DNA of 64,000 bases from Saccharopolyspora soli (GTDB lineage: Bacteria; Actinomycetota; Actinomycetes; Mycobacteriales; Pseudonocardiaceae): the NCBI RefSeq assembly GCF_022678645.1, contig NZ_JALBWV010000018.1, positions 1 to 64,000 of the forward strand. Reading direction: 5' to 3'. Shown one piece after another: positions 29,252 to 63,331 of the stretch (positions are counted from its first letter, which is position 1; each line of letters begins with the position of its first letter). Below the pieces are notes generated by a model that searched no databases, was not told the DNA's origin, and was given only the letters and a program-made list of their open reading frames with translations. The translations under genes and the position numbers were made by a program.

Positions 29252-29327
29252 GGTCCGGCGTAGTCCCTCCCCACGCCGGACCACATGGTGGCCGGGCGCA
29301 CCGCGCCCCGACAGGCGCCCGGCCACC
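29252..29327. ncRNA. Two-hairpin element, copy 1
   Basis: Hairpin 1: GGTCCGGCGT / ACGCCGGACC, a 10-bp perfect stem (29252-29261, 29273-29282) with loop AGTCCCTCCCC. After ACAT, hairpin 2: GGTGGCCGGGCGC / GCGCCCGGCCACC, a 13-bp perfect stem (29287-29299, 29315-29327). A second copy at 63254-63331 keeps both stems and the loop sequence GTCCCTCCCC, with a compensatory G-C to C-G change in stem 1. A structured RNA is the simplest reading; the strand is unproven. The segment from 29328 to 29589 shows no gene. Confidence 0.5.
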
Positions 29328-29589
29328 CCTAGCCGGAGAGAGCCCTCCGATACGGAGAAAGGTGCCAACTCATCGAAGCAGGCAACGACACCCCAACGGA
29401 CAACTCGACCTGGCAGAACAGGGAGGATGCACGTCCCGCATCGTCCAGCACCTCCTTGAGATGACCGCCGCTGCATGACACAACCGCAGCATCCGACCTC
29501 TGATCACCTACGACCACGGACCAATCGGAACAGCTCATCGAGCGATTCCAACGGAAAGCAGCGAAAAGCGACCACCAAGCCGACCGGCG

Positions 29590-30327
29590 TCAGGTGACTT
29601 CGGTGTAGAGGTGGGCCCAGCCTTCGGCCGTGAGGTTCTTCGGCAACGCGGGCAGGTTCCGCAACCGGCGCCCAGTCACCTTTCGCACGATCTCGGCCAA
29701 ACCCCGACCGGGTCCGGTGAAAACCGCCTCGACGAATCGCTGGTACTGGCGCAGTTCGTCGGAGGGCACCAGCGGCTGCGGCCGACGCCGGATCTTCAGC
29801 ACGCCCCCGTCGACGGCAGGCACCGGGCGGAACGATCGAGCGGGAACCCGTCCGCAGAGCCGGAGCTCGTACCAAGGCGCCCACTGCGCGTTCAGCATCG
29901 TGCCGCCACCAGCGCGTTTGCGTGCGACATCCCACTGCACGAGCAAGATCGCCTCCGACCAACCCGCTGTGCCGAGCAACCGGCGGGTCATCGCCGTCGT
30001 GATGCTGAAAGGCAGATTGCCGACCACCGCGTACGGCGTGTCTGGGAACCGGAAATCCAGCATGTCACACCGGATCACCCGAACCTGGGGACAGTTGGCG
30101 CGGAGTTCCGCGGCCCAGTGGCGGTCGAGTTCGACAGCCGTGATCTCTCGTCCAGTGTGGACGAGTGCGCGGGTGATGGCTCCGCGCCCGGCGCCGAGTT
30201 CGACGATCGGCACCGGCGACGGATCGAGCAAGTCGACCAGGCGGCGGGCTGCGCTCCGGTCGATCAGGAAGTTCTGGCCGAGTTCACGGCGCGCACGATC
30301 GCGCGCCGACATGCGGCGAGTAGGCAT
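29590..30327 (-). CDS. erm: Erm-family 23S rRNA (adenine-N6) methyltransferase
   Basis: 245 residues from ATG 30327. E-L-G-Q-N-F-L (15-21), SAM motif I V-E-L-G-A-G-R-G-A-I (42-51), acidic motif A-V-E-L-D, catalytic N-L-P-F-S-I-T (104-110), and a C-terminal basic helical domain. Erm enzymes dimethylate A2058 and confer macrolide-lincosamide-streptogramin B resistance; housekeeping KsgA is the alternative, but the N-L-P-F core, Q-W-D-V-A-R-K-R-A and short length favour Erm. AGGAG is 8 nt upstream and partly buried in a leader hairpin, suggesting translational control. Confidence 0.85.
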   Translation of the reverse strand: MPTRRMSARDRARRELGQNFLIDRSAARRLVDLLDPSPVPIVELGAGRGAITRALVHTGREITAVELDRHWAAELRANCPQVRVIRCDMLDFRFPDTPYAVVGNLPFSITTAMTRRLLGTAGWSEAILLVQWDVARKRAGGGTMLNAQWAPWYELRLCGRVPARSFRPVPAVDGGVLKIRRRPQPLVPSDELRQYQRFVEAVFTGPGRGLAEIVRKVTGRRLRNLPALPKNLTAEGWAHLYTEVT

Positions 30328-30335
30328 GGTGAGTG

Positions 30336-30382
30336 CTCCTGCGTTCGCGAACCGGTCGGAACCGGGCACTCGCGAGCGCAGG
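30336..30382 (-). promoter_or_regulatory. Leader hairpin that sequesters the erm ribosome site
   Basis: Arms 30338-30350 and 30370-30382 pair over 13 bp with one G-T wobble, and an inner CCGGT-tccg-ACCGG stem (30352-30365) extends the fold. The AGGAG ribosome site (30340-30336) has its first three bases in the stem. Upstream on the same strand a tiny frame (ATG-CCA-CGC-TGA, or six codons from GTG) could be a leader peptide, but it lacks a clear ribosome site. This is the layout of drug-inducible erm attenuators. The rest of 30383-30647 has no gene. Confidence 0.5.
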
Positions 30383-30647
30383 TCAGCGTGGCATCAAAAG
30401 CACAACGAACCGCGCGTCGGGAAACGAGAGCCCGGACGCGGACGGCGGCGCTAATTCAGATCCGGCGCCGCCTAGGCGGAACGCAACCTCATGAAAACGC
30501 CGATGCCACCAAAACCAGCCATGCCGAGCAGGCTAGCGGTCCCAATCGCGACTCGAAACCGATTTTTCGGGCACCTGAGCTCGTGCCCGCGTGAGCAGCC
30601 GCTGCCGTGCAACGATGTGCGTTGATCAGCTACTCCGGAGCGTGCCC

Positions 30648-31478
30648 ATGCGGATCTACTTCACCGTCGACATGGAAGGCATCACCGGTCTCGTCGACTC
30701 CCACGACGTCCAACCCGCCGGGCGGGATTACGAACACGGCAGGCTGATGATGGCCGAGGACGTCAATGCGGCGATTCGCGGCGCGCTCGCCGCCGGTGCC
30801 ACCGAGATCACCGTCAACGACGCGCACGGCCCGATGCGAAACCTGCGTTCCGACATGCTGCACCCCATCGCGCGGCTGATCCGCGGCAAGCCCAAGAGCA
30901 TGGGCATGCTGGAAGGTCTCGACAACAGCTACGACGCGGCGATCTGCATCGGCTACCACTCCCGAGCCGGAACCTCGGGAGTGCTCAGCCACAGCTTCAT
31001 GGGCCACGAGATCGAAGACCTGTGGATCGATGACCGACCCGTCGGCGAGATCGGGCTCACGCACGCCACCGCCGCCGTGCTCGGTGTTCCGGTGGTGCTG
31101 CTCTCCGGCGACGACACCGCATGCGCGGAGATGACCGATTGGGACCCCGCCGTCGAGACCGTGCCGGTGAAGTACGCGCGCGGCCGCTTCGCGGCAGAAC
31201 TGCGGCCGATCGCCGAAGCGCGCGAAGCCATCGAAGCCGCCGCGACCGCGACCCTGACCAGGGCGCCTGCGGCCGAAACCCATGCGGCGGAGCGGACAAC
31301 GCTCGCGGTGCGCTGGCAGTCCGCCGCCGTGGCCACCACGCTGCTGGACCTTCCCGGCGTCACGGCCCGCGACGATCGCACCGTCGAGATCAGCGGCTAC
31401 CTGCCCGACGTCTACCGGCAGTTCCGCGTCTGGATGACCGTGGCCACCGCGCTCACCAACCAGCCGCCGTACTGCTGA
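30648..31478 (+). CDS. M55 family D-aminopeptidase (DppA-like)
   Basis: 276 residues from ATG 30648 (M-R-I-Y-F-T-V-D-M-E-G-I-T-G). The zinc ligands of the M55 family are present: D8, E10, H60 (N-D-A-H-G), H104 (G-Y-H-S) and E134 (G-E-I-G-L). Relatives form decamers and cleave D-amino-acid dipeptides, probably to recycle cell-wall peptides. CCGGAG precedes the start. Confidence 0.93.
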   Translation: MRIYFTVDMEGITGLVDSHDVQPAGRDYEHGRLMMAEDVNAAIRGALAAGATEITVNDAHGPMRNLRSDMLHPIARLIRGKPKSMGMLEGLDNSYDAAICIGYHSRAGTSGVLSHSFMGHEIEDLWIDDRPVGEIGLTHATAAVLGVPVVLLSGDDTACAEMTDWDPAVETVPVKYARGRFAAELRPIAEAREAIEAAATATLTRAPAAETHAAERTTLAVRWQSAAVATTLLDLPGVTARDDRTVEISGYLPDVYRQFRVWMTVATALTNQPPYC

Positions 31479-31613
31479 GAGCTTGGTGGGCGATCTAGCG
31501 CGAAATCGGCGCACGCGGAACGAGTTCTGGGATCGACCTCAGTAGTCGGTCAACTACCCGATGTTCGTCAATTTCGGTTGTCCGAAGGCGGTTTCGGCAA
31601 CTCTGCGTCATGT

Positions 31614-31643
31614 GTTTGACCTTTGTTCATCTTCGCGTTCAAG
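31614..31643 (+). promoter_or_regulatory. PHO-box-like direct repeats before phoX copy 2
   Basis: GTTTGACCTTT, GTTCATCTTCGC and GTTCAAG follow each other with periods of 11 and 12 nt, about 60-90 nt upstream of the PhoX start. GTTCA units with an 11-nt period are the form of actinobacterial PhoP boxes. Confidence 0.4.
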
Positions 31644-31701
31644 TGCTATCGCCTGATCGCCGTAATGTCCGATTGTTCCCGACGATCACTTGGAGGTCCG
31701 C

Positions 31702-33762
31702 TTGTCTTCCCGATCGGACAGCGGGCGGGTCATCCCGCTCCCCCTTCTGTCCCACCACTCAGCCAACCGGTCCTCGGTGACCTGCAAGTACCGCTGCGGT
31801 AGCGCGTGCGCTCACGAGGCACCCAACACCTCGGACAACGCCTACTTCGGCGACATCATCGAAAGCGTGCTCAGCCGACGCGGCGCGCTGAAGGCCGGTG
31901 GCGTGCTCGCCCTGACCGTCGGGGGCGCAGCAGCTCTCGCTGGCACCGCAGCGGCCACCCCGGCACCGCAAGCCCGACCGGGCCGGGGAGCCGTTCCCGG
32001 CACCGACTTCGCGCCCGTTGCCCCGAACACCGAGGACGCGGTCGTCACCGCCGAGGGCTACGAGCAGGGCATCGTGATCCGCTGGGGCGACCCGGTGGTG
32101 CCGGGTGCGCCGGAGTTCGACTTCAACAACCAGACCGCGGCGGCGCAGGAGAAGCAGTTCGGCTACAACAACGACTTCGCCGAGCTGATCGCGCTGGACC
32201 GCGGCGGCAACGAGAACCTGCTGGTGGTGAACCACGAATACACCACCGAGACGCACATGTTCGCCGGGTACGACGAGGAGAACCCGACCGAGGAGCAGGT
32301 GCGCATCGCCTGGGCCGCGCACGGCCTGTCCGTGGTGCTCGTGAAGCGGGACGGCGGCGGCCTCAAACCGCAGCCGAGCAAGTACAACCGGCGCATCACG
32401 CTGAACACGCCGTTCGAACTGCGCGGTCCCGCCGCGGGTAGCGACTACCTCAAGACCTCGGCCGACCCGACCGGCACGAAGGTCCTCGGCACGCAGAACA
32501 ACTGCGCGGGCAGCCTGACGCCGTGGGGCACCATCCTCTCCGGCGAGGAGAACTTCAACCAGTACTTCGCCAACGCCGACTCGGTCACCGACCCGGCCAC
32601 CAAGACCCGCCTGGGCCGCTACGGCTTCTCGGGCGCCGCGAGCGTCCGCAAGTGGGAGAACTTCGACAAGCGCTGGGACCTCGCGCAGGAGCCGAACGAG
32701 GCCAACCGCTTCGGCTGGATCGTCGAGATCGACCCGCAGGATCCCCAGTCCACGCCGGTCAAGCACACCGCGCTGGGCCGGTTCAAGCACGAAGGCGCGG
32801 CCATCCAGATCGCCGATGACGGCCGGGTGGTGGCCTACTCCGGCGACGACGAGCGCTTCGACTACATCTACAAGTTCGTCTCCAACGGCAAGGTGAAGAA
32901 GGGCACCAGCGCCTTCGCCCGGCGGCACAACATGACGCTGCTCGACGATGGCACCCTCTACGTCGCGAAGTTCGCCGGCAACAGCCCGGCCGGTGAGATC
33001 GACGGCACCGGCAAGCTGCCCGCGGACGGCGCCTTCGACGGCACCGGCGAGTGGATCCCGCTGGCCAGCGGCAAGGAATCGTTCGTGCCCGGATTCACCG
33101 CCGAAGAGGTCTACATCTTCACCCGGCTCGCGGCCGACCAGGTCGGGGCGACCAAGATGGACCGGCCGGAGGACATCCAGCCGAACCCGGTCAACGGCCG
33201 CATCTACTGCGCGCTGACCAACAACACCAACCGCGGCTCGGCGGGCAACGCCGCTCCGGACGAGGCGAACCCGCGGGTCGGCAACAAGCACGGTCACGTG
33301 CTGGAGGTCACCGACGACACGACCGGCACCAAGTTCGCCTGGGACCTGCTGCTGGTGTGCGGTGACCCGAACGACCCGAACACCTTCTTCGGCGGGTTCG
33401 ACAAGTCGAAGGTCAGCCCGATCTCTTGCCCCGACAACGTGGCGTTCGACCGGCACGGCAACCTGTGGATCTCCACCGACGGCAACGCGCTGGAGAGCAA
33501 CGACGGCCTGTTCGCGGTGCCGGTGGACGGTCCCGAACGCGGCTGGGTCAAGCAGTTCCTGACGGTGCCGCACGGCGGAGAGACCTGCGGTCCGGTGATC
33601 CGGGACAACGTGGTGACTGTTTGCGTGCAGCACCCCGGCGAGCTCGACGGCGCGAGCGCGGACAACCCGGCGTCGCACTGGCCCGACGGCGGGAACTCGC
33701 AGCCGCGTCCGTCGGTCGTGGCGATCTGGCGCAAGGACGGTGGTGAGATCGGCCGACGCTGA
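31702..33762 (+). CDS. Tat-exported PhoX-family phosphatase (DUF839), copy 2
   Basis: 686 residues from TTG 31702, chosen because GGAGG ends 5 nt before it. Same plan as the gene at 26027: Cys cluster T-C-K-Y-R-C-G-S-A-C, twin-arginine signal S-R-R-G-A-L-K-A-G, then the PhoX domain with N-H-E-Y-T-T-E, N-N-C-A-G-S-L-T-P-W-G-T and L-S-G-E-E-N. The two proteins align over their whole length, so this is a gene duplication. PHO-box-like repeats lie upstream and a good terminator downstream. Confidence 0.92.
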   Translation: MSSRSDSGRVIPLPLLSHHSANRSSVTCKYRCGSACAHEAPNTSDNAYFGDIIESVLSRRGALKAGGVLALTVGGAAALAGTAAATPAPQARPGRGAVPGTDFAPVAPNTEDAVVTAEGYEQGIVIRWGDPVVPGAPEFDFNNQTAAAQEKQFGYNNDFAELIALDRGGNENLLVVNHEYTTETHMFAGYDEENPTEEQVRIAWAAHGLSVVLVKRDGGGLKPQPSKYNRRITLNTPFELRGPAAGSDYLKTSADPTGTKVLGTQNNCAGSLTPWGTILSGEENFNQYFANADSVTDPATKTRLGRYGFSGAASVRKWENFDKRWDLAQEPNEANRFGWIVEIDPQDPQSTPVKHTALGRFKHEGAAIQIADDGRVVAYSGDDERFDYIYKFVSNGKVKKGTSAFARRHNMTLLDDGTLYVAKFAGNSPAGEIDGTGKLPADGAFDGTGEWIPLASGKESFVPGFTAEEVYIFTRLAADQVGATKMDRPEDIQPNPVNGRIYCALTNNTNRGSAGNAAPDEANPRVGNKHGHVLEVTDDTTGTKFAWDLLLVCGDPNDPNTFFGGFDKSKVSPISCPDNVAFDRHGNLWISTDGNALESNDGLFAVPVDGPERGWVKQFLTVPHGGETCGPVIRDNVVTVCVQHPGELDGASADNPASHWPDGGNSQPRPSVVAIWRKDGGEIGRR

Positions 33763-33779
33763 TCCACCTCGCCAGCGCG

Positions 33780-33816
33780 GGGGTCTCCGGCCAGGCCGGA
33801 GGCCCTCGTTGCTTTT
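33780..33816 (+). terminator. Intrinsic terminator after phoX copy 2
   Basis: GGGTCTCCGGC-CAG-GCCGGAGGCCC followed by TCGTTGCTTTT: a tight GC stem with a T-rich tail, the clearest classical terminator in the window. Confidence 0.8.
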
Positions 33817-33833
33817 CCGGGTAGTTTCCAGCG

Positions 33834-34472
33834 GTGGGATTCGCGGATCGAGAATCGCTCGCGCAGGCCGTGACCAGGGCGTTGACCGATGCGGTGCCCG
33901 GCTCGCGGGTGTCGGTGATCGGGTCGTTGGGGGCTGGCACAGCCGACGAGTACAGCGACGTCGACCTTGCCCGGGTGGTGCCCGACGGCGCGGCGCCGGA
34001 TTGCGCCGACCGTTTGGTTCCGCTGCTCGGCGAGGTGGCCGAGGTCGCGTCGGTGCGGTCGGTGCCGGAGTTCCAGCGGTCCTCGCTGCGTCGCCTGATC
34101 TTCGTGCGGCTTCGCGGAGTGCCGCTGTTCTGGCGGCTCGACCTGCAGATCTGGGCTGAGTCGCACGCTTTCGACACCGACGCCGATGTCGGCAACCCGC
34201 AGGCGCGCGGCGCTGACTGGTCGCTGGCCGAAAGCGCTGCCATGAACGCTCTCGGTGCGTGCAAAGCGGTGCTGCGCGGCCTTCCGGATACCGCCGATGG
34301 GTTGCTGTCGCGTGGATTTCAACGCATCGACGAGCCCGATCCCGGTGGTGGTTGGGAGCACCGCATAGCCGCGCTCGTCGCTGCTGCCACGCGACGCGAC
34401 GCCGGGCTCGGCCCACTCGGTGCAGAGCTGAGTGCGCTGCTTTCCGCGTGCAGCAAGGATTTCCCGGTCTAG
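33834..34472 (+). CDS. Nucleotidyltransferase-fold protein
   Basis: 212 residues, GTG start. G-S-L-G-A-G-T-A-D-E-Y-S-D-V-D-L (30-45) is the G-S-x-x-x-G-x-x-x-x-S-D-x-D signature of the polymerase-beta-like nucleotidyltransferases, with a third carboxylate expected near D102 (R-L-D-L-Q-I-W). Relatives include aminoglycoside and lincosamide adenylyltransferases. The substrate is unknown. Confidence 0.8.
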   Translation: MGFADRESLAQAVTRALTDAVPGSRVSVIGSLGAGTADEYSDVDLARVVPDGAAPDCADRLVPLLGEVAEVASVRSVPEFQRSSLRRLIFVRLRGVPLFWRLDLQIWAESHAFDTDADVGNPQARGADWSLAESAAMNALGACKAVLRGLPDTADGLLSRGFQRIDEPDPGGGWEHRIAALVAAATRRDAGLGPLGAELSALLSACSKDFPV

Positions 34473-34537
34473 GCTGCGTTTCGACAACCGCAACCTTCGA
34501 GCCTGTCCCCGACAGTGGCTATCGCGTCTGGGTGGGC

Positions 34538-34605
34538 GATTTCTCGCGAAATTGTCACTTCCCGTGAGAAGCGGGTGCCGATTCCTCAAGAAATTGGCAA
34601 CTCCT
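34538..34605. repeat. Family C motif, two tandem variants
   Basis: CGATTTCTCGCGAAATTG (34538-34555) and GCCGATTCCTCAAGAAATTGG (34577-34597). The first 16 bases recur exactly at 46121 and 63425. They lie in the 347-bp gap after the nucleotidyltransferase gene, which holds no convincing gene. Confidence 0.5.
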
Positions 34606-34819
34606 CGCACTGGCGCGCGGCGCGAGTTCAAGGGCGGGCCTTGGGCCGGAGGGCATTCCAGCCGTGCCTGCCCGAGAACCGGAACGCCCAGCGGCTGACA
34701 CCAGGCCGAACAAGCACCCGATCGCGTACAGCACGAACACCTCGGCTTCGTTACCGAATCCGATGCACGCCTGCCTTGCGCCCGGCTACGCCCGCAGCCG
34801 CCGAGGACCGTGCGGCGCA

Positions 34820-36166
34820 TCAGCCTTCTTGCTGGGCGCTGGTCTCGGCCTGTTCCGTTTTGGGTGCTGCGCGCAGGGCGATCACCGTGATCGCCGCCGC
34901 GATCATCACCAGACCCACCACCCAGAGGCCGGTGCGCTGGGAGCCGGTCGCGTCCTTGAGCGCACCGGTGATGTAGGGCGCCGCGAAGCCGCTGATGTTG
35001 CCCAACGAGTTGATCAGCGCGATGCCACCGGCCGCCGCCGCACCCGCCAGGAAGTTGCTCGGCAAGGCCCAGAACGTGGGTAGCGCGGCGCAGACACCGA
35101 CCGCGCAGATCGTCACCGCGACCATCGCGCTGAACGGATTGCCCAGGTACAGCGCGATCGGGATGCACGCGCCGCCGAGCAACATCGGCAACGCGACGTG
35201 CCACACCCGCTCCCGAGTCCGGTCACCGTGCCCGGCCCAGAGCACCATGGCCACCGCACCGATCACGTACGGCACCGCAGTGATCAAACCGGTCTGCATC
35301 GTGGACAGATCGGTGCCGTACTGCTGCTCGAAGCCCTTGATGATGGTGGGCAGGAAGAAGCCCAGCGCGTACAGGCCGTAGGCGATGCCGAAGTACACGA
35401 ACGCCAACGCCAGGATCCGCGGGTGGGTCAGGGCCTTGCGCAGCGGCCAGCTGTGGGCGGCCTCGGTCTGCTTGCGTTCGGCCTCCAGCTGCTCGTTCAG
35501 CCAGGCCCGTTCGTCGGCCGTGAGCCACTTCGCCTCGGACGGCCGGTCGGTCAGGTAGAACCAGGTGGCGACGGCCAGCAGCATCGCCGGGATGCCCTCG
35601 ACGAGGAACATGAACCGCCATCCGGACAACCCGAAGACGCCGTGCCCGGCGCTGATCAACGCGCTGGACACCGTTGCGCCGATGGCGCTGGACACCGGGA
35701 TCGCGGTCATGAACAGCGCGACCGCCTTCGCCCGTTGCGCCGCCGGGAACCAGTAGGTCAGGTACAGGATGATGCCGGGGAAGAACCCGGCCTCGGCCAC
35801 CCCGAGCAGGAACCGCAGCACCACCAGGGCGGTGGCGTTGGGCACGAACGCCATGGCGGTCGCCACCAGGCCCCAGGTGATCATGATGCGCGCGAGCCAC
35901 TTGCGCGCCCCGAAGCGGTGCAGCGCGAGGTTGCTCGGCACCTCCAGCACCAGGTAGCCGATGAAGAAGATGCCCGAGGCGAACCCGAAGACGGTCGCGC
36001 TCAGCCCCAGTTCGTCGTTCATCCCGTTCGGGCCAGCGAAACCGATGTTCACGCGGTCCAGGTAGTTGACGAAGTAGAGCAAGCAGAGGAAAGGCATCAA
36101 CCGGACCGCGACTTTGCGCACGATCCGGTTCTGAACTCCAGCAGAGGCTGCGTCGACACTGCTCAC
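34820..36166 (-). CDS. MFS transporter, anion:cation symporter type
   Basis: 448 residues with twelve predicted helices. L-Y-F-V-N-Y-L-D-R-V-N-I-G-F-A and P-S-N-L-A-L-H-R-F-G-A-R-K-W are the ACS-family signatures (tartrate, phthalate or 4-hydroxyphenylacetate-type carboxylate importers). GTG start. The likely role is uptake of an organic acid; the substrate cannot be read from the sequence. Confidence 0.92.
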   Translation of the reverse strand: MSSVDAASAGVQNRIVRKVAVRLMPFLCLLYFVNYLDRVNIGFAGPNGMNDELGLSATVFGFASGIFFIGYLVLEVPSNLALHRFGARKWLARIMITWGLVATAMAFVPNATALVVLRFLLGVAEAGFFPGIILYLTYWFPAAQRAKAVALFMTAIPVSSAIGATVSSALISAGHGVFGLSGWRFMFLVEGIPAMLLAVATWFYLTDRPSEAKWLTADERAWLNEQLEAERKQTEAAHSWPLRKALTHPRILALAFVYFGIAYGLYALGFFLPTIIKGFEQQYGTDLSTMQTGLITAVPYVIGAVAMVLWAGHGDRTRERVWHVALPMLLGGACIPIALYLGNPFSAMVAVTICAVGVCAALPTFWALPSNFLAGAAAAGGIALINSLGNISGFAAPYITGALKDATGSQRTGLWVVGLVMIAAAITVIALRAAPKTEQAETSAQQEG

Positions 36167-36267
36167 CCAGGTGACCTAAGCCTCCAGCCCCCAATGGGTC
36201 AAGTGGTGGGCCGCTGATTGGGACGGCCGGTATCCGGATCGAAACCGGCCGACGTTACCGTTCAGGC

Positions 36268-36951
36268 ATGCCCGAACGCCCAATTGCCCTGGTCACCGGC
36301 GCCTCACGAGGCATCGGTGCCGCCGTGGCCCGCGCACTGTCCGACACGCACGATCTGCTGTTGGGCGGGCGCGACACCGACGCGCTGCGGACGCTCGTCG
36401 ACGAGTTGCCCGGCGCCACGCCTTGGCCGGTGGAACTCACCGATCACCACGCCGTCGCCACCGCGGTCACCGACATCGAACGGCTCAACGTGCTGGTGCA
36501 CAGCGCCGGTCTCATCGAACTGGCGCCGGTCGCGGACGCGCGCAGCGACTCCTGGCGGCGCACCTTCGAGCTGAACCTCTTCGCGGTCACCGAGCTGACC
36601 AGGCTGCTGCTGCCCGCACTGCGTGCCGCGAAGGGGCACGTGGTGCTGGTCAACTCCGGCGCCGGGCTGTCCGCGAAGCCGCACTGGGGCTCCTACGCCG
36701 CGAGCAAGTTCGCGCTGCGCGCCTTCGCCGACGTGCTCCGCGCCGAAGAAGCGGCCAACGGCATGCGGGTCACCTCGGTTTTCCCCGGCCGAACCGTCAC
36801 GGACATGCAGCGGAACGTCCGCGAGCAGGAGGACGCCGCGTTCGAGCCGGAGCGCTACCTGCGTCCCGAGTCGGTGGCGGGGCCGATCGTGTCCGCCGTG
36901 CACGCCAGCGCCGACGCGCACCTCACCGAGATCGTCATCCGACCGTCCTGA
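36268..36951 (+). CDS. Short-chain dehydrogenase/reductase
   Basis: 227 residues. Rossmann T-G-A-S-R-G-I-G (10-17), N103, S130 and Y143-x3-K147 complete the SDR catalytic set; G-G-R-D after strand 2 suggests NADP(H). The substrate is unknown. Convergent with the deaminase gene 46 nt away. Confidence 0.93.
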   Translation: MPERPIALVTGASRGIGAAVARALSDTHDLLLGGRDTDALRTLVDELPGATPWPVELTDHHAVATAVTDIERLNVLVHSAGLIELAPVADARSDSWRRTFELNLFAVTELTRLLLPALRAAKGHVVLVNSGAGLSAKPHWGSYAASKFALRAFADVLRAEEAANGMRVTSVFPGRTVTDMQRNVREQEDAAFEPERYLRPESVAGPIVSAVHASADAHLTEIVIRPS

Positions 36952-36997
36952 CCCAGCGCACCCGGTCCGGTCGCCGCACCACCTGCGTCGGACCGGT

Positions 36998-53974: not shown

Positions 53975-54143
53975 GATCACTCCTGTTGCCGCCGACTGCC
54001 GCGGCCCCTGACCGGGGCCACGAGATCAGCTTGCATGTTCTGGCACTACGCCGACATCGGTCCAGCGTCTGGACTTCGGGTCATCCCCGAGTCGTAGTGA
54101 ACCCGACCTGAAGGATGACCGCCTCAGGGTTGTCCCGGAGATC

Positions 54144-54944: not shown

Positions 54945-54995
54945 CAACGCAGGTTAGCCGCCGTTGGCGGTGTTGTGGCTGGTTGGAGGCGTATT

Positions 54996-55652: not shown

Positions 55653-55805
55653 GGCAACACACCCTATCCGAGCAGGGATTTCGAACTCGGAGAGTGCACG
55701 GATCGGCTTGCCCGGCGGAACCTCGGAGTGGGTGCCGGTTTTGCCCTGAAACTGGCACCCGATCCCGCGTCTTCCGCGCGGCAGGGCGAGGCCGAAACCC
55801 AACGG

Positions 55806-57026
55806 CTACCGCTGCATCGACGGCATGCTTTCGCGTTCGGTTTGGCCGATCGGCAGCAGCGCGTGCACCCGCCAGCCTCCGTCCGCGCGCCGACCGGCCT
55901 CCAGCGTTCCGCCGTAGACCACGGCTCGCTCCCGCATCCCGATGAGCCCGTTGCCGCCCGAGGTCAGCTCGGTCCGCTTCCGTCGTTTCCCGTCATCCAG
56001 CACCTCGATCTCGATGCGTTGTCCGTCGTTGTCCGCGCGGACCCTGGCGGTGGCTCCCGGTCCGCCGTGCTTGACCACGTTGGTCAGCGATTCCTGCACG
56101 ATCCGGTACACGCTGAGCCCGATCCCGGTCGACAGCTCGGTGAAATCGCCGGTCACCTGCAACGACACGCGGACCCCGAGATCGCGCACCCGGTCGACCA
56201 GGTCGTGCAGGTCCGCAGAGGTCGGTTGCGGAATCCGGCCGGGTTCGCCCTCTGCTGGACCGCGCAGCACACCGAGCAGGCTCCGCAGTTCGCCCAGCGC
56301 CTCGCGGCCGGTGCTGCCGATCGCCTGCAACGCGCACTCGGCGAGTTCCGGCTTGTGGCGCAGGGCGTAACCGGCGCCGTCGGCCTGCGTGACCATCACG
56401 CTGACCGAGTGCGCGAGCACGTCGTGCACTTCTCGGGCGATCCGGTTGCGCTCCTCGGCGACCGCGATGCGGGCCTGCTGGTCGCGCTCGAACTCCAGGC
56501 TGTGCAGCCGCCGCTCCACCTCGGCGTGGTACGCACGGCGGGCTCCGACGAACTCGCCCAGCATCCAGCAGAATCCGGCCAGCAGGACGAAGAACGCGAC
56601 CTGGACGAGGACCAGGCCGATCACGTTCTCCGGCAGGCCCTGCTGGGTGAACAGCCGGAGCAGGAAGAGTCCGCCGGTCAGCGCGGTGTAGAGCGCGGCT
56701 TTCCAGCGGCCCGCCCCGGCGACCAGGGTGTAGATCATCACGCACGCCACCACGGTCGCCGCGGCGAAATCCGCGCCCTGGTGGGCAACCGACATGATCG
56801 CCACGCCGAGCAGCGCGACGTACGCCGACGGCACCGGCCAGATGCGCCGCACCGCCAGCGGCACGGTCAGCAGCAGTCCGACCACGACGTACAGCGCGGA
56901 CGGCATGGCGATCGCCCGGTCACCGCCATCGTTGAGCCCGCCCAGGTGTACGAGCAACATGAAGGTGGCGATCCCGCTGTCGCCGACCAACGGGCGCGCC
57001 CGCAACCAGAGGCTCAGTTTCCGCAC
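55806..57026 (-). CDS. Membrane histidine kinase (HisKA_3)
   Basis: 406 residues, GTG start. Five hydrophobic helices in the first 165 residues, a coiled-coil linker, phospho-acceptor H201 in R-E-V-H-D-V-L-A-H-S and an HATPase domain (N-V-V-K-H, G-N-G-L-I-G-M-R-E-R). LiaS/DesK-like layout. Signal unknown. Confidence 0.94.
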   Translation of the reverse strand: MRKLSLWLRARPLVGDSGIATFMLLVHLGGLNDGGDRAIAMPSALYVVVGLLLTVPLAVRRIWPVPSAYVALLGVAIMSVAHQGADFAAATVVACVMIYTLVAGAGRWKAALYTALTGGLFLLRLFTQQGLPENVIGLVLVQVAFFVLLAGFCWMLGEFVGARRAYHAEVERRLHSLEFERDQQARIAVAEERNRIAREVHDVLAHSVSVMVTQADGAGYALRHKPELAECALQAIGSTGREALGELRSLLGVLRGPAEGEPGRIPQPTSADLHDLVDRVRDLGVRVSLQVTGDFTELSTGIGLSVYRIVQESLTNVVKHGGPGATARVRADNDGQRIEIEVLDDGKRRKRTELTSGGNGLIGMRERAVVYGGTLEAGRRADGGWRVHALLPIGQTERESMPSMQR

Positions 57027-57195
57027 ACTGCCGAGATTAGGACGTCCGGACCTGCGCGGACGTCATTCCGCAGGCTCGAATCGGATCAACCCGTGGTCGT
57101 ACACCAGGCAATATCCCTTCGACGTCCCGGCTGATCAGCCATGCGTGGCAGGATGTCACGGACAGCGAGTGGCCGCGTGGATCGGGAGGGCTGAC

Positions 57196-57375
57196 GTGCG
57201 CAGGCAAGTGGCGGAGCCGCCCTTCCAGCACGTCCGCAGCCTGGTTCTTCGAACGCCATCTCCGCTGGACCGCCCCGACAGCATGTCCAATGCGCGAATC
57301 GTGTCGGGAGCAATGGCGTCCGCGGTCGCGCTGCACGAGACGACCCGCACAGTCCACCGGAAAGGTCGGCGTTGA
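57196..57375 (+). CDS. 59-residue protein coupled to the dynamin gene
   Basis: GTG 57196 with GGGAGGG 5 nt upstream. 59 codons, basic (R-R-Q-V at the start, H-R-K-G-R-R at the end), no membrane helix. The stop overlaps the TTG start of the dynamin-like gene (TTGA). Small genes often precede actinobacterial dynamin clusters, but I do not recognise this one. Confidence 0.5.
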   Translation: MRRQVAEPPFQHVRSLVLRTPSPLDRPDSMSNARIVSGAMASAVALHETTRTVHRKGRR

Positions 57376-58910
57376 GTACCGAGCAGCAGCACTGGCCCGG
57401 TCCGCTTTCGGCTGCGGTCGCCCGGCTGTGCACCGGGTTGCAGCCGCAGGTGTCCGAGCGGAGCGCGGCCGGATTCGCCGAGGTGCTGCGCAGGTTGTCG
57501 GCTCCGCTGCAGGTGGCCGTCGCGGGCCGGATCAAGTCCGGCAAGTCCACACTGGTCAATGCGCTGATCGGGCGCCGGGTCGCGCCCACCGACGTCGGCG
57601 AGTGCACCCGGCTGGTGACCCGCTTCCAGTACGGCACCGTGGACCGCGTCGAGATCATCTTCCGGAACGGGAAGAAGCAGGCCGTGCCGTTCGAGGCCAA
57701 CGGCGGCATCCCGGCCGACCTGGGCGTGGACATCGAACAGGTCTCGCACCTGGAGGCATACCTGACCAACGCGGTGCTGCGCGATCTGACGGTGATCGAC
57801 ACCCCGGGACTCGGTTCGCTGGACGCCGCCTCCGTGGCGCGCACCGAAGAACTGCTGGGCACCCGGCCGGAGACCGAGGACGACGACGAGTTGGACCCGG
57901 TGTCGCGCAGCGCGGTCGCCGGAGCCGAGGCCGTGGTCTACGTGGTGACGCAAGGGGTTCGAGCCGACGACGAACAGGCGCTGGCGGCGTTCACCGCGGC
58001 CACCGCGAGCCGGGAAGCCGGACCGGTCAACGCGATCGCGGTGCTGAACAAGGCCGACACCATCGAGCCGAGCTCGGTGGAGGACTCCGACGGTGACGTG
58101 TGGAAAGCCGCCTCGCTGCTGGCGGAGAAGCAGTCGCAGCTGCTCAAGCCCAAGGTCGCGGACGTGCTGCCGCTGATCGGCCTGCTCGCGGAAACGGCGG
58201 AATCCGGCGAGTTCACCTCCGGTGACGCGGAGGCGCTTCGCGGCCTGGCCAAGCTGGACGAGGCGACCCGCGAAACGCTGTTGCTGTCGGCGGACCTGTT
58301 CACCAGCTGGGAGTGCGACGTCCCGGCCGGTACCCGCAGCCGCCTGCTGGAACGGATGGACCTCTACGGAATCCGGTGCGCGCTGAAGGCGATCGACGCC
58401 GACCCGGAGATCACCGCGGGCGCGCTGCGGCGGCGGCTGCTGGATTCCTCCGGGCTGGCCTCGGTGTTGAACCGGCTGGACACGGTGTTCCGCGCACGGG
58501 CCGACGGCATCAAGGCGGCGGCTGCGCTGGCCTCGGTGACCGCACTCGCGCAAACCTCCGGCGACCAGGGCGAACGGCAGCGGGTGCACGACGCGATCGA
58601 GGTGCTGCTGGCCAAGCCGGAAGCGCACCAGCTGCGGGTGCTGGAGGCGTTGACGCTGGTCGCGGCCGGGGCGGTGACGATGCCGACGGATCTGGCCGAC
58701 GAGGTGATGCGGGTCGGCAGCAGCACCGATGTCGGCGAGCAGCTCGGTCTGCCGGGGCGGCACCGCAAGGAACTGACCGACTACGCGCTGGAACGGGCGA
58801 ACTGGTGGCGCTCGTTCTCATCGTTCGGCGCCACGCCCGCGCAGAGCCGCATCGCGCACGTGGTGCACCGGGCGTACTTCCTGATCTGGCAGCAGCTGCG
58901 GTCCGGGTGA
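57372..58910 (+). CDS. Dynamin-like GTPase, first copy (IniC-like)
   Basis: 512 residues, TTG start. G1 G-R-I-K-S-G-K-S-T (52-60), G3 D-T-P-G (143-146), G4 N-K-A-D (226-229), then helical stalk; no membrane helix is evident. Relatives are the mycobacterial isoniazid-inducible IniA/IniC and the streptomycete DynA/DynB pairs, which remodel membranes under drug stress or during sporulation septation. Start and stop overlap its neighbours on both sides. Confidence 0.9.
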   Translation: MSTEQQHWPGPLSAAVARLCTGLQPQVSERSAAGFAEVLRRLSAPLQVAVAGRIKSGKSTLVNALIGRRVAPTDVGECTRLVTRFQYGTVDRVEIIFRNGKKQAVPFEANGGIPADLGVDIEQVSHLEAYLTNAVLRDLTVIDTPGLGSLDAASVARTEELLGTRPETEDDDELDPVSRSAVAGAEAVVYVVTQGVRADDEQALAAFTAATASREAGPVNAIAVLNKADTIEPSSVEDSDGDVWKAASLLAEKQSQLLKPKVADVLPLIGLLAETAESGEFTSGDAEALRGLAKLDEATRETLLLSADLFTSWECDVPAGTRSRLLERMDLYGIRCALKAIDADPEITAGALRRRLLDSSGLASVLNRLDTVFRARADGIKAAAALASVTALAQTSGDQGERQRVHDAIEVLLAKPEAHQLRVLEALTLVAAGAVTMPTDLADEVMRVGSSTDVGEQLGLPGRHRKELTDYALERANWWRSFSSFGATPAQSRIAHVVHRAYFLIWQQLRSG

Positions 58911-59386
58911 TGACGGTGCGAAATTGGCGGGGTCGACAGCGTCGGCAGAAATCACCCGAAAGTGGAACCGGTGGCGTGCCCGCCGCGTCCGATCCAGACG
59001 AGGGCACCGCTGTGGCCCCGGATGCTGACGCAGAGTTGGGGACCAAGATGACCGCCGTGACCAGCGACATCGCCACCGATCCGCTCGACCGCGCACTGGC
59101 TGAACGGGCGACGCTGATCCAGCTGTGCATGTACGCGATGGACCGGGCCCGCAGCGCGGGCGTGGTGGAACGGCTTTCCGAAGGGCTCAGCGATATCGGG
59201 GTCGCGGCGCTGCGGCCGGACGGCACCCGGTTCGACCCGGCGCACCACGAGGCTGGCGGCACGTTGCCCACCGACGACCCGACGCTGGACGGCGTGATCG
59301 CCGAGACCGAGGTGCTCGGCTTCGCCGACCGGGATCGCGTGCTGCGCGCTCCGGTGGTGACCGTCTACCAGCTGCGGACGAAGTGA
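58910..59386 (+). CDS. GrpE-like nucleotide exchange factor
   Basis: 158 residues; ATG overlaps the dynamin stop by 1 nt (TGATG). Residues 1-55 are low-complexity and charged. 60-158 match the GrpE C-terminal half: a shortened helix, then L-R-P-D-G-T-R-F-D-P-A-H-H-E-A and V-L-R-A-P-V-V-T-V-Y. The long dimer helix of true GrpE is missing. GrpE-like proteins accompany dynamin pairs and Hsp70-like proteins in some actinobacteria; no Hsp70 gene is in this window. Confidence 0.75.
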   Translation: MTVRNWRGRQRRQKSPESGTGGVPAASDPDEGTAVAPDADAELGTKMTAVTSDIATDPLDRALAERATLIQLCMYAMDRARSAGVVERLSEGLSDIGVAALRPDGTRFDPAHHEAGGTLPTDDPTLDGVIAETEVLGFADRDRVLRAPVVTVYQLRTK

Positions 59387-59480
59387 GAAGCCTTCCGGTG
59401 GTGCTTCGGTTCGGGGACAATTTCCGGTCTGGACTGGGATTCCGCCACGTAGCACGGGTTCGGAGAGGAGCGGGGCGAGC

Positions 59481-61337
59481 ATGACGGCGTCTGCACCGGC
59501 CGCGGTCGCCGCGGCACTGCCGCAGCAGGTCAAGCAGGCCAGGGACAAGCTGCTCGCGCTGTTGCGGGAGGCCGACCCGACCGCCGCGGAGTGGGTGGAG
59601 CAAGTTCGGCGCAGCCGTCCGGCGACGCCCAGCGTGGTCGTGGTCGGCGAAACCAACCGCGGCAAGAGTTCGCTGGTCAACGCCCTGCTCGGACACCCTG
59701 GACTGTCCCCTGTGGACGCTGACGTGGCCACCGCGACGTACCTGCAGTTCGAGCACGGCGAGCAGTGGGCGGCGCACGCCTGCTACCCCGGCCAGCAGGA
59801 CCCGGTGTCCTTCGACCTGGCCGAGCTGCCGAACTGGGTGGGCGCGGGCCGCGAACTGCCCGAAGGGCAGCTGCCGCCGCGCTACGTGCGCATCTCGGCG
59901 CCGCTCGACGCGTTGGAAAAGGTGACGGTGGTCGACACCCCCGGTGTCGGCGGGTTGGACGCGCTGCACGGCGAACTCGCGATGGAAGCGGCGGCTTCGG
60001 CTACGGCGCTGCTGTTCGTCGTCGACGCGTCCGCCCCGTTCACCCGCGGCGAGCTGGACTTCCTGCACAAGGTCGGCGAGCGCGTCGAGACCGTGGTCTT
60101 CGCGCTGGCCAAGACGGACCAGCACCGGGGTTGGCGGCAGGTCCTGGAAGACGACCGGAAGCTGCTGGTCGAGCACGCGCCGCGGTTCGCCGACGTGCCG
60201 ATCTTCCCGGTGTCCGCGCGGATGCTGGAGCTGGCCGGGAACGCGCCGAGCGAGCAGGCCGCGAACGTGCTGCGCGAGAAGTCCGGCATCACGGAGCTGC
60301 GCACCGAGCTGGAGCGGCTGATCGGCGGTCGGTCGATGATGCTCGGCGAGGCCAACACGATGCGCGCACTGTCCACTGTGCTCGGTGAGTTGGTCGCGAA
60401 GCTGGAGGGCGAGAAGCGCGCGCTGACCGTCGGCGAGGACGAGGCGGAGTCGCTGCGGGCGCGGCGCGACGAGCTGTCCACCGCGCGGCGCTCGTCGACC
60501 CGAGGCTGGCAGGTCAAGCTGCGCGGCGAGATCCAGCGCACCCGCGTCGAGACCAGCCACGAGGTGACCCGCCAGGTCCGGGACGTGCAGAACTGGTTCC
60601 GCCGGGCCATCGACGGTGCCGACCGCGACCAGCTCGCCGATCTGCCCCGGCACGTTGACGTGGCGTTGCAGATGGCCTCGACGCGCATCGCATCGATGCT
60701 CTCCGCACGGCTGGCGACCGTTGCCGAGCAGGCGTTGAAGGAGCTGTTCTCCGCCGAGGAACTGGACGTGATCCGCTCGCAGTTCGCCCGTGGTGTGCAG
60801 GCGCCGATCGCGCTGCGCCCGCCGGACAAGCGACCGCCGACCGCGGAGGACAAGCTGCTGGTGTTCATGGGCGTCTCCGGCGGGCTCGGCGTCGGGCGCG
60901 CGGCCGCGATGCCATTGGCCGGGCTGGGAATCGCGGCGCTGAACCCGGTGGTGCTACCGGTGACGATCGTGCTCGGGCTCGGCGCGGGCTGGTGGATGGC
61001 CCGAACCCGCAAGCACGCGGCGGACAAGCAACACCTCAAGCAGTGGCTGACCGACGCGATCGCGGACGCCCGCTCGGCGCTGGACCAACTCGTGGCGGAG
61101 CAGCTGATCGAGGCGGAGCAGCAGCTGTCACTGGCCCTGGACGACGCCCTGACCAGGCGGATCGAGGCGATCGAGGGGGAGCTGCGCGAGGTGGACAAGG
61201 CGCTGAAGATGGACGCCGCGGAACGCAGCCGAGAACTCCAAACGGTCAACCGCCGCCTGACCGAAGCAACAGCGGGCCGCGACCGAGCGGAACACCTCCT
61301 CGGCAGCATCCGCAACCTCCGCGACACCGCGGCATGA
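59481..61337 (+). CDS. Dynamin-like GTPase, second copy (IniA-like)
   Basis: 618 residues; GAGAGGAGCGGGG precedes the ATG. G1 G-E-T-N-R-G-K-S (56-63), G3 D-T-P-G-V-G-G (152-158), G4-like A-K-T-D (210-213), long stalk helices, a hydrophobic hairpin at about 455-505 (A-A-M-P-L-A-G-L-G-I-A-A-L-N-P and G-L-G-A-G-W-W) that would insert in the membrane, and a C-terminal coiled coil. The hydrophobic paddle distinguishes it from the first copy, so the two probably form a hetero-oligomer. Confidence 0.9.
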   Translation: MTASAPAAVAAALPQQVKQARDKLLALLREADPTAAEWVEQVRRSRPATPSVVVVGETNRGKSSLVNALLGHPGLSPVDADVATATYLQFEHGEQWAAHACYPGQQDPVSFDLAELPNWVGAGRELPEGQLPPRYVRISAPLDALEKVTVVDTPGVGGLDALHGELAMEAAASATALLFVVDASAPFTRGELDFLHKVGERVETVVFALAKTDQHRGWRQVLEDDRKLLVEHAPRFADVPIFPVSARMLELAGNAPSEQAANVLREKSGITELRTELERLIGGRSMMLGEANTMRALSTVLGELVAKLEGEKRALTVGEDEAESLRARRDELSTARRSSTRGWQVKLRGEIQRTRVETSHEVTRQVRDVQNWFRRAIDGADRDQLADLPRHVDVALQMASTRIASMLSARLATVAEQALKELFSAEELDVIRSQFARGVQAPIALRPPDKRPPTAEDKLLVFMGVSGGLGVGRAAAMPLAGLGIAALNPVVLPVTIVLGLGAGWWMARTRKHAADKQHLKQWLTDAIADARSALDQLVAEQLIEAEQQLSLALDDALTRRIEAIEGELREVDKALKMDAAERSRELQTVNRRLTEATAGRDRAEHLLGSIRNLRDTAA

Positions 61338-61357
61338 GCCGATCAGGTGAGGAGTGC

Positions 61358-61396
61358 GGGGCACCCTTTACCAAGTAACTGGGTAAAGGGTGCCCC
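61358..61396. terminator. Terminator-like hairpin family A, copy 3
   Basis: GGGGCACCCTTTACC and its exact complement GGTAAAGGGTGCCCC, 15-bp arms around AAGTAACTG, which is nearly the reverse complement of the CTTAC loop of copies 1 and 2. It lies between the convergent dynamin and DUF397 genes. Confidence 0.75.
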
Positions 61397-61401
61397 TCAC
61401 C

Positions 61402-61656
61402 TCAGAACTTCGGCGCGTCGAACCGGTCGGAGCGGATCGCCGCGAGGAACGTGTGCCACTGGTGGTGGTCGAGGGATAACAGCCCGCCGTCGCGGTCCTT
61501 GGTGTCCCGGACTCCGACGGCGTCAGCGACGAGGCCGACCTCGACGCAGTTGTTGTTCGGGCCGCTGTGGCTGGACTTCCGCCAGCCGACTTCGACGCAA
61601 CTTGACTGCGTACCGCTGTAGCTGGACTTGCGCCAACCCGCAAAATCTTCGTTCAT
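61402..61656 (-). CDS. DUF397 protein with a duplicated signature
   Basis: 84 residues. The DUF397 core W-R-K-S-S-x-S-G-x-x-x-x-C-V-E-V occurs twice in tandem (residues 8-23 and about 24-40), where a single copy is usual. Start overlaps the stop of the HTH gene (ATGA). Such pairs belong to the WhiJ/BldB-like systems of actinobacteria, where the DUF397 protein modulates the DNA-binding partner. Confidence 0.9.
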   Translation of the reverse strand: MNEDFAGWRKSSYSGTQSSCVEVGWRKSSHSGPNNNCVEVGLVADAVGVRDTKDRDGGLLSLDHHQWHTFLAAIRSDRFDAPKF

Positions 61657-62492
61657 CGTCCCTCCAGGTCGTCGAGGTAGGAGCGGATCAGCTCGGCCGA
61701 CTGATCCACATCCAGCGCTTCCGTTCGGAGCGTAGACGTGAGTTCGCAAAAGCCAGTCGTGTCTGCCCGCTCGTCGAGAAACTGCCCTGAACGGCGATGT
61801 TCCAGGTGAACGATCGGGTCGGCCTTTGCGAACTCCAGCAGGATGTGCGAGCCATCTTGTCCAATGTGGGCGCCGAGCTCGAACGGCAGAACCTGAACCA
61901 AGACGTTGTCGAGATCGCCCATCTTCAGGATGTGCCTGAGCTGGTCGGCCATGACCTCCGCACCGCCGACAGGTCGGCGAAGCACCGCCTCGTCGATGAA
62001 CGCAAGAAAATCAACAGGCGATGCCTTCGTCAGTACCTCTCGCCGTCCCATCCTGATGGCAACCAACATCTCGATTCGTTCGGGAGGAATCCCGCCTGTA
62101 CGGAAGACCGTCCGCGCATAGTCTGCGGTCTGAAGCAAGCCTGGCACCCTGACCAGAGACAGGTCGACGATGCGCGTCGCTTCGCGCTCGAACTCCAGCA
62201 AAGCTGACAACTGACGCGGGATTCCAGGATTGCCGACCTCTGTCCAGTTCGGTTGATCTGCTTCCTTCGCCGCTTCGATCAGCTCGTTCCGGCGCGCACC
62301 CGTGACCTGGTAAATGGCGAGTATGGCCCCTAGGTCTTCGGCACTGGGCACCTTGTCGCCACACTCGATGCGGCTGATCGTCGAGCGCGAAAAGCTGAGG
62401 CGCTGTTCGAGTGCCCGCACGGTAAACCCAGCTTGCTTGCGAAGTTCTCGGAGTTCCGCGCCGAGTACACGAGCTTTCGCAGTGTTCGCCAT
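61653..62492 (-). CDS. XRE-family regulator with DUF5753 domain
   Basis: 279 residues. N-terminal helix-turn-helix (L-G-A-E-L-R-E-L-R-K-Q-A-G-F-T-V and S-R-S-T-I-S-R-I-E), then a DUF5753 region from about 95 (R-I-V-D-L-S-L-V-R-V-P-G-L-L-Q-T-A-D-Y-A-R). Partner of the overlapping DUF397 gene. Two palindromes upstream are candidate operators. Confidence 0.94.
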   Translation of the reverse strand: MANTAKARVLGAELRELRKQAGFTVRALEQRLSFSRSTISRIECGDKVPSAEDLGAILAIYQVTGARRNELIEAAKEADQPNWTEVGNPGIPRQLSALLEFEREATRIVDLSLVRVPGLLQTADYARTVFRTGGIPPERIEMLVAIRMGRREVLTKASPVDFLAFIDEAVLRRPVGGAEVMADQLRHILKMGDLDNVLVQVLPFELGAHIGQDGSHILLEFAKADPIVHLEHRRSGQFLDERADTTGFCELTSTLRTEALDVDQSAELIRSYLDDLEGR

Positions 62493-62513
62493 GACCTAAC
62501 CCTATGTTTCGCA

Positions 62514-62554
62514 TTGATCACCTGATGTGATCAACCTTAGTTGTCCCTGGGACA
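62514..62554. promoter_or_regulatory. Two palindromes between the XRE gene and the small zinc-finger-like gene
   Basis: TTGATCAC-ctgat-GTGATCAA (62514-62534) is a perfect 8-5-8 palindrome, followed by TGTCCC-t-GGGACA (62542-62554). The divergent gene starts are 20-60 nt away. Likely XRE operators. Confidence 0.65.
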
Positions 62555-62610
62555 TCACAAGACCCTATGCCATAGATTTGTCTTGGAAACAGGCTTAAAC
62601 AGGAGGCGAG

Positions 62611-62835
62611 ATGTTCGAAGCGGCTGGGGTGGATTGGTTTTGGCGGCCCGTTGGGGTTGGGCGGCACGGGTTCGGCGTGGCCGCGAAGCGGGCCGAGCCG
62701 CATGCGGCGGTGACCTCGTTCTGCGGGGTCGAGGTGGAGGCGTGGCAGGTGCAGCAGCTCCCGCCGGAGATCGAGTGGATCGACCAGGACACCTGCATGG
62801 CCTGCTGGCGTCGGATCGCCGCCCAGTGGTCGTGA
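62611..62835 (+). CDS. Small Cys-containing protein, zinc-finger-like
   Basis: 74 residues; AGGAGGCGAG precedes the ATG. Aromatic start (V-D-W-F-W-R-P-V-G), T-S-F-C-G-V-E-V and a late T-C-M-A-C-W; the Cys spacing with nearby His suggests a small zinc site. Similar short proteins accompany HTH/DUF397 loci in Pseudonocardiaceae. The stop lies in palindrome family B, copy 4. Confidence 0.65.
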   Translation: MFEAAGVDWFWRPVGVGRHGFGVAAKRAEPHAAVTSFCGVEVEAWQVQQLPPEIEWIDQDTCMACWRRIAAQWS

Positions 62836-62873
62836 GTGGTAATGGCCGCTCTGGCGACCATTACCACTCACGA
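62830..62873. repeat. Palindrome family B, copy 4
   Basis: TCGTGAGTGGTAATGG and CCATTACCACTCACGA, 16-bp perfect arms, loop CCGCTCTGGCGA. The preceding gene stop TGA (62833-62835) is in the left arm. Confidence 0.75.
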
Positions 62874-62917
62874 CCCCAAGCAGCAGAAACCCAACCTCAA
62901 ACGCAAAGGGGACACCG

Positions 62918-63136
62918 ATGTTCTGGCTTCAGGTGAGCACTCTCGTGCTGGTCAACGCATTGATCGCGAGCATGCTGCTCATTCGCGTGCCGCGCGCTCA
63001 GCACACCGGTGCGGGTGACGGTGCGCTCAACGTCTGGCAGCTGATCGAAGCAGTCGAAGCCGAACGACATCGGGAAACCGAGTCCACCGGACGCCATCGC
63101 CTGAGCCCGGAAACCCTCGCCCGCCTTCGGCTTTGA
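62918..63136 (+). CDS. Small membrane protein
   Basis: 72 residues, ATG start with AAAGGGG upstream. One hydrophobic N-terminal helix (F-W-L-Q-V-S-T-L-V-L-V-N-A-L-I-A-S-M-L) and then a soluble polar tail with V-E-A-E-R-H-R. It probably belongs to the same transcript as the preceding small gene. Family not recognised. Confidence 0.6.
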   Translation: MFWLQVSTLVLVNALIASMLLIRVPRAQHTGAGDGALNVWQLIEAVEAERHRETESTGRHRLSPETLARLRL

Positions 63137-63253
63137 CGTCGAGCAACGCGAAGCACGACGTCGGTCGATCCGAACCCCTCGGTCGCCTTCGGCTTTGACA
63201 ACGGTCGACGCCGAAGCCCCGGCTCATCTCCGGGTTCGACACCTACAGACCTC

Positions 63254-63331
63254 GTCCGGCCGTTGTCCCTCCCCGGGCCGGACCTCATGGTGGCCGGGCG
63301 CTTCGCACCCCCGCCCCGGCGCCCGGCCACC
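63254..63331. ncRNA. Two-hairpin element, copy 2
   Basis: Hairpin 1: GTCCGGCC / GGCCGGAC (63254-63261, 63276-63283) with loop GTTGTCCCTCCCCG. After CTCAT, hairpin 2: GGTGGCCGGGCGC / GCGCCCGGCCACC (63289-63301, 63319-63331). Same order, spacing and loop core as copy 1, with a compensatory stem change. It lies in the 460-bp gap 63137-63596, which has no other gene. Confidence 0.5.

Follow-up and report, generated by a model that had tools for sequence, protein, structure and literature searches.

Small RNAs with C-rich loops are known from mycobacteria, where 6C/B11 appears to be a single-locus regulator. The C-rich loop of the B11 terminator is reported to bind G tracks near ribosome-binding sites (PMC12395582), and either loop is enough for one target, mutation of both loops being required to lift repression of a target reporter (PMC10470900). 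Streptomyces RNAs of the scr5583 and scr1434 type, which are highly expressed, also present a C-rich loop on a stem, but they are described with one such loop, and the available sections of their description mention no link to a gene module (PMC3765725). Here we describe a twin C-loop hairpin element that occurs twice in a stretch of 64,000 nucleotides (nt) of the Saccharopolyspora soli genome (positions 1 to 64,000 of contig NZ_JALBWV010000018.1, assembly GCF_022678645.1), hereafter called the window. Like 6C/B11, as read in ten 6C loci, the element has two hairpins with C-rich loops. However, 6C mostly gives one match per genome (matches in 33 of the 41 genomes searched, a single one in 32 of these 33), whereas the element is of other sequence, present in many copies and tied to a gene module. 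We conclude that it represents a multi-copy family of structured RNA tied to an expanded operon module. No description of element or module was found among the literature matches listed, as judged by their titles and the beginnings of their abstracts; overlap with the S. erythraea small-RNA lists of PMC3827479 is possible. Loops of the kind known from a single locus in mycobacteria appear here multiplied, and attached to a repeated regulator and small-membrane-protein module in antibiotic producers.

Each copy consists of two tandem GC hairpins, about 80 nt in total, and the two copies are in register (Table 1). An earlier note on this DNA had reported a two-hairpin element present twice, with the hairpins in the same order. 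Both copies were found, and none of 200 shuffled sequences was as stable as either (folding z-scores of -6.0 for copy 1 and -5.6 for copy 2). The compensatory change claimed for stem 1 is a real exchange of G-C for C-G, but it concerns one pair only (G29260-C29274 in copy 1, C63261-G63276 in copy 2), and covariation becomes clear only in the wider alignments A5 and A8 described below. In the same way, the loop core reported as unchanged, GTCCCTCCCC, is indeed common to both copies, with 2 occurrences in the window against 0.22 expected (a number reached by 1 of 100 window shuffles), but loop sequence varies across the family and the loop is not invariant there. The note was silent on the second loop, which is also C-rich in both copies (ACCGCGCCCCGACAG and TTCGCACCCCCGCCCCG), and on the link to a gene family.

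In 389 kb of the genome that carries the window, there were 168 perfect hairpins of at least 9 base pairs (bp) and 6 tandem pairs. Only two loci had runs of at least four of one letter in both loops: copy 1, with C, and the locus of the 6C RNA, with G (equivalent to C on the opposite strand); copy 2 was not scored under this rule because its stem 1 has 8 bp. A looser rule (8 bp, one mismatch) gave 156 tandem pairs in the same 389 kb, of which 9 were of the C type (CCC in both loops), both window copies included, and 7 of the reverse, G type, including the 6C locus. A coding explanation for the conserved sequence was rejected: the reading frame of the small membrane protein gene preceding copy 2 (called A6 below) stops before the element, and no frame common to copies 1 and 2 was seen in the frame lists, no formal coding test having been run.

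When 40 relatives and the genome itself were searched with BLAST, 25 of the 41 genomes gave some match, many of the matches being short. The 16 full or nearly full-length elements that were aligned from it were all within the genus, and a pattern scan of named genomes returned eight records, seven of Saccharopolyspora and one of Halopolyspora algeriensis. Covariance models R1, R2 and R3 were built in steps. Model searches, which the earlier note had proposed for Pseudonocardiaceae, did recover further copies: R1 had matches in 14 of the 22 genomes of the genus and in 20 of 297 from the family, R2 in 26 of the 297, and R3 gave 88 matches at an expectation value (E) of up to 0.05, distributed over 15 of the 22 Saccharopolyspora genomes. 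The E values of these models are rough; with a limit of 0.05 per genome, 22 genomes would be expected to yield about one false match, and some weak R3 matches (e.g. L286, L289 and L294) may be due to chance. In a class-wide draw of 394 genomes, searched under strict filters and with 11 candidates scored for each listed genome, R3 found only the genome of the window.

The stems of the nearest 15 sequences are nearly invariant, and covariation among them was not above that of shuffles (105 of 500 reached it). Two-sided changes were seen at 6 of 22 pairs in the 27-sequence alignment A5 and at 17 of 22 pairs in the 54-sequence alignment A8, values that none of 500 shuffles reached in either case; when the pairing partners in A8 were shifted by 1 to 3 columns, the number of two-sided pairs dropped from 17 to 1-5. 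It should be noted that these counts lean upward, because the sequences are related to one another and had been aligned to fit the model. Some loci were left out of the alignments: L017 from A3 (it opened a gap among the 16 rows of A2); L060 (second stem broken) and L062, L035 and L068 (without C-rich loops) from the 31 loci considered for A5; and L060, L068, L111, L112 and L132 from A8, which includes a second, weaker match in L134. The proposal of a conserved structured RNA with C-rich loops is supported, and we hold with high confidence that the element is a real, conserved structure of the sense strand.

The genes next to copy 2 belong to a module with the typical order of a divergent XRE-DUF5753 regulator, a zinc-finger-like gene, the A6 gene and the twin hairpin. 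The divergent regulator and DUF397 gene at copy 2 are of the same kind as the XRE-DUF397 pairs of Streptomyces, which are antibiotic production regulators and have been proposed as toxin-antitoxin systems; the account of these pairs differs in that the part available names no zinc-finger-like gene, A6 protein or RNA, and the terms 'membrane protein' and 'small RNA' are absent from its main text (PMC10364602). The A6 protein of copy 2 matched nothing in Pfam up to E = 1 or in NCBIfam up to E = 0.1, and two sister A6 proteins had sub-threshold family matches only. A6 matches listed at E up to 0.01 were present in 20 of 22 genus genomes, with 12 in the genome of the window, at least 12 in 11 of the 22, and a maximum of 40. 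At E 1e-5, 22 of 297 genomes drawn from the family had a match, 19 of the genus and 3 others. In these two draws the A6 family is nearly confined to the genus; its proteins share the conserved motifs VW.LI and GRH, and we found no curated family for them. Among 30 A6 loci, a homolog of the window's XRE regulator was present in 23 and a zinc-finger-like gene in 21, and six of the seven loci that had no XRE homolog are weak A6 matches.

When the R3 matches were placed relative to the listed A6 matches, 55 of the 88 were located 10 to 292 nt 3' of one on the same strand, 5 were located 293 to 360 nt 5' of one, and none was antisense. At most 28 had no listed A6 match near them, and for 15 of these 28 a match to A6, the zinc-finger-like gene or XRE was found no more than about 1.5 kb away. 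The association was also examined from the side of the genes, in 100 A6 loci totalling 78.5 kb (the first 80 listed A6 matches and 20 lower ones picked by hand). A model-free rule found the sense twin C-loop form in 68 of these loci and the antisense, G-loop form in none; from its rate in the 389 kb of genome sequence (9 C-type pairs), about 2 would be expected. Together with the model matches, an element was present in 83 of the 100 loci (70 of the first 80, 13 of the 20 picked by hand), a figure that is partly circular because R3 was built partly from members of the same set; the 68 are independent of the model. One search gave no antisense match below E 0.01 and 11 weaker ones at 0.011 to 0.049. 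All five elements located 5' have a divergent XRE homolog on one side and, on the other, a zinc-finger-like gene with A6 behind it; in the two of these loci whose 3' A6 flank was among the 100 (L222 and L245), neither rule found an element in that flank. Many copies per genome and strong palindromes might also be expected of mobile DNA palindromes like the REP (repetitive extragenic palindromic) sequences, but the orientation and place of the element are fixed relative to the A6 gene family, the variation in its stems is compensatory and its loop motifs recur, and we consider such an origin extremely unlikely.

No Rfam family matched the window over threshold, Scr3202 coming nearest, and to that extent the earlier remark that no known family came to mind was correct; RNAs of the same kind are known, however, in 6C/B11 and, below threshold, Scr3202. 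The gathering score of Scr3202 (RF02833) is 52 bits, and copy 1 reached 26.7 bits in a full-length match, copy 2 15.9 bits; for 6C (RF01066), with a gathering score of 47 bits, there was no match in the window. Scr3202 resembles the element in its two GC hairpins, C-rich loops and similar first stem, and R1 gives weak matches at Scr3202 loci (33.8 and 28.5 bits at best). Together with the full-length match of copy 1, this gives some ground for regarding the element as a divergent member of that family. On the other hand, copy 2 scores low; none of 20 chosen A6 loci, copy 2's included, matched Scr3202 or 6C at E up to 1; and a search of the window's own genome with Scr3202 at E up to 10 gave three other weak places and neither window copy. 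Moreover, the one translated Scr3202 locus (L072) is 3' of a sigma-factor gene, whereas the element loci are not so placed, and some Scr3202 copies carry a T-run after stem 2. Matches to Scr3202 over threshold were found in 17 of 394 class genomes, all of one genus. As for 6C, the same genome has a separate 6C locus on another contig (C131), and ten 6C loci searched with R1 gave no match at E up to 1. Membership in either family, already weakened by these results, is very improbable. Because of the sub-threshold scores, the weak or missing cross-matches and the separate 6C locus, we do not file the element under Scr3202 or 6C, and we describe it as an RNA that would work like them.

Loop motifs were counted in the 68 elements found by the model-free rule, which have 60 distinct loop pairs. 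CCTCC was present in a loop of 66 elements (shuffled loops: mean 25, maximum 36), CCCCGA in a loop of 49 (mean 3, maximum 11), and CCTCC in one loop with CCCCGA in the other in 45 (mean 0.7, maximum 4). The two motifs occur in either order, with the CCCCG type first in 33 elements, the CCUCC type first in 10 and a mixed or other arrangement in 25. CCUCC is the anti-Shine-Dalgarno core of 16S ribosomal RNA. Its excess beyond composition agrees with pairing to ribosome-binding sites, the role that had been suggested for the C-rich loop.

The reading that we favour, and to which we give about an even chance, is that of an operon-borne twin-hairpin RNA working like mycobacterial 6C/B11, in which the C-rich loops would pair with G-rich ribosome-binding sites; in the pairing mechanism as such we have moderate confidence. 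According to this reading, the element would stand at the end of a Saccharopolyspora operon transcript, or in rare cases form its leader, the operon running, opposite the divergent XRE-DUF5753 regulator, through the zinc-finger-like gene and then the small membrane protein gene. The stable twin hairpins would expose two C-rich loops, typically CCUCC and CCCCGA, and might end or protect the transcript. The hairpin RNA might act within the mRNA, or be cut off as a small RNA derived from the 3' untranslated region, and its loops would pair with ribosome-binding sites of other mRNAs and presumably lower their translation, as 6C/B11 does in mycobacteria.

Several observations weigh against this reading. 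In loop-to-site pairing computed for 55 modules, the ribosome-binding sites of the own operon were no better than those of sister operons (permutation p = 0.52), and fold-back of the element onto its own operon's site, a variant of the pairing idea, was rejected for lack of any such preference. It follows that the RNA would act broadly or in trans, or else that pairing is not its role. Pairing with real sites was about 1.1 kcal/mol better than with shuffled ones, a modest difference. No sigma-70-type promoter was found by either window copy. The kinship of the sequences inflates both motif and covariation counts. Of the R3 matches, 13 of 88 had no module gene found nearby (three are near contig ends), and 17 of the 100 A6 loci had no element by either rule, at least three of these being cut by contig ends, as L220, L228, L232 and L233 are. 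Finally, in most loci read the element starts within about 70 nt of the stop codon, and a convergent open frame often ends just beyond it.

This last placement is what would be expected of the chief rival explanation, a two-hairpin terminator or 3'-end stabiliser serving the small-gene operon and its convergent neighbour, with loops that have no role; two-hairpin clusters are reported to be common termination units (PMC8355165). Yet a T-rich tail (at least 4 T in the 8 bases past the last stem) was found in 2 of the 68 elements and at neither window copy, the loops carry specific motifs, and among the 100 A6 loci the C-rich loops are on the sense strand in 68 and on the opposite strand in none. 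The five elements upstream of the operon, opposite the divergent regulator, do not follow a stop codon in this way, and most tandem hairpins in the sampled 389 kb look unlike the element. Strand bias, loop motifs, the lack of a T tail and the elements placed upstream weigh against termination as the whole story, none of them decisively, and we regard this explanation as possible although clearly less probable than the 6C/B11-like RNA.

An unlikely alternative, in our view, is that the loops form a protein binding site, for example for the zinc-finger-like protein of the operon, which would then control the operon mRNA. The retention of two loop motifs in either order would suit such a site, as would the zinc-finger-like gene in 21 of 30 A6 loci and the position of the element directly after that gene in L016, L017 and L055, but copy 1 and 12 other matches have no module gene found nearby.

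In the case of copy 1, a neighbourhood of about 1.5 kb (L006) gave no A6, zinc-finger-like or XRE match, and a search for traces of lost genes at 28701-29700 yielded scattered short matches (best E about 0.02) and no clear A6 or zinc-finger-like remnant. In relatives the locus can be recognised by the rRNA adenine dimethylase-like gene (RrnaAD) that converges on copy 1. In L016 and L055, where a zinc-finger-like gene precedes the element, a homolog of the RrnaAD gene lies immediately past the element; in L031 and L033, where the element comes after an A6 gene, the homolog is about 1 kb further on. Most simply, copy 1 would be the element that this RrnaAD-marked locus kept when it lost the module genes, in which case the element would have outlived them. 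Two long, similar open frames on the plus strand, at 26027-28018 and 31690-33762, flank the neighbourhood of copy 1.

A further and rather doubtful extension of the 6C/B11-like reading is that the elements are decoy RNAs of anti-Shine-Dalgarno type, a family scattered through Saccharopolyspora genomes with, as a rule, one copy for each module of XRE regulator, zinc-finger-like protein and small membrane protein. The RNA of an operon released by its regulator might then damp translation of sister modules and of other mRNAs with G-rich leaders, and by this RNA the modules could shut each other out or keep each other in balance, perhaps in the manner of toxin-antitoxin systems. If the loops do act, they would form a genome-wide post-transcriptional network and would offer a direct test of target choice by anti-Shine-Dalgarno-like loops.

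Table 1. Coordinates in the window of the two twin-hairpin elements and of the genes near them
Feature	Position	Strand	Remarks
Twin C-loop hairpin element, copy 1	29249-29332	+	no module gene found within about 1.5 kb
Copy 1, hairpin 1	29252-29282	+	10 bp stem, loop AGTCCCTCCCC
Copy 1, stem 1	arms 29252-29261/29273-29282; loop 29262-29272	+	
Copy 1, hairpin 2	29287-29327	+	13 bp stem, loop ACCGCGCCCCGACAG
Copy 1, stem 2	arms 29287-29299/29315-29327; loop 29300-29314	+	
rRNA adenine dimethylase-like gene	29590-30369	-	convergent with copy 1; RrnaAD 9.9e-37
DUF397 protein	61402-61656	-	adjoins XRE regulator; start codon inferred; PF04149 4.2e-26
Divergent XRE regulator	61653-62492	-	HTH_31 (7e-18) and DUF5753 (1.6e-54)
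Zinc-finger-like small protein	62611-62835	+	74 amino acids; Pfam zf-HC3 below threshold (19.3 bits against 25); aligned with relatives
A6 small membrane protein	62918-63136	+	72 amino acids (MFWLQ...GAGDGALNVWQLI...GRHRL); stop 113 nt before copy 2
Twin C-loop hairpin element, copy 2	63250-63336	+	3' of small membrane protein gene
Copy 2, hairpin 1	63254-63283	+	8 bp stem, loop GTTGTCCCTCCCCG
Copy 2, stem 1	arms 63254-63261/63276-63283; loop 63262-63275	+	
Copy 2, hairpin 2	63289-63331	+	13 bp stem, loop TTCGCACCCCCGCCCCG
Copy 2, stem 2	arms 63289-63301/63319-63331; loop 63302-63318	+	

Some smaller features of the module were also seen. The last 15 bases of the A6 gene at copy 2, stop codon included, recur in the spacer before the element as a direct repeat (63122-63136 and 63185-63199, GCCTTCGGCTTTGAC). 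A palindrome, TTGATCACCTGATGTGATCAA, at 62514-62534 in the interval that separates the divergent XRE regulator from the zinc-finger-like gene, is a possible operator. In locus L061 (minus strand, about 1608-1937) a zinc-finger-like protein has the A6-type tail GRHHLRT, as if both small genes had been fused. Similar twin hairpins with a first loop beginning GGCATCCCCG were found in four genomes at places with no A6, zinc-finger-like or XRE match nearby (L285, L287, L288 and L292, element at about 1501); in three of these four, a convergent frame ends with a similar tail that contains EIITAFR.

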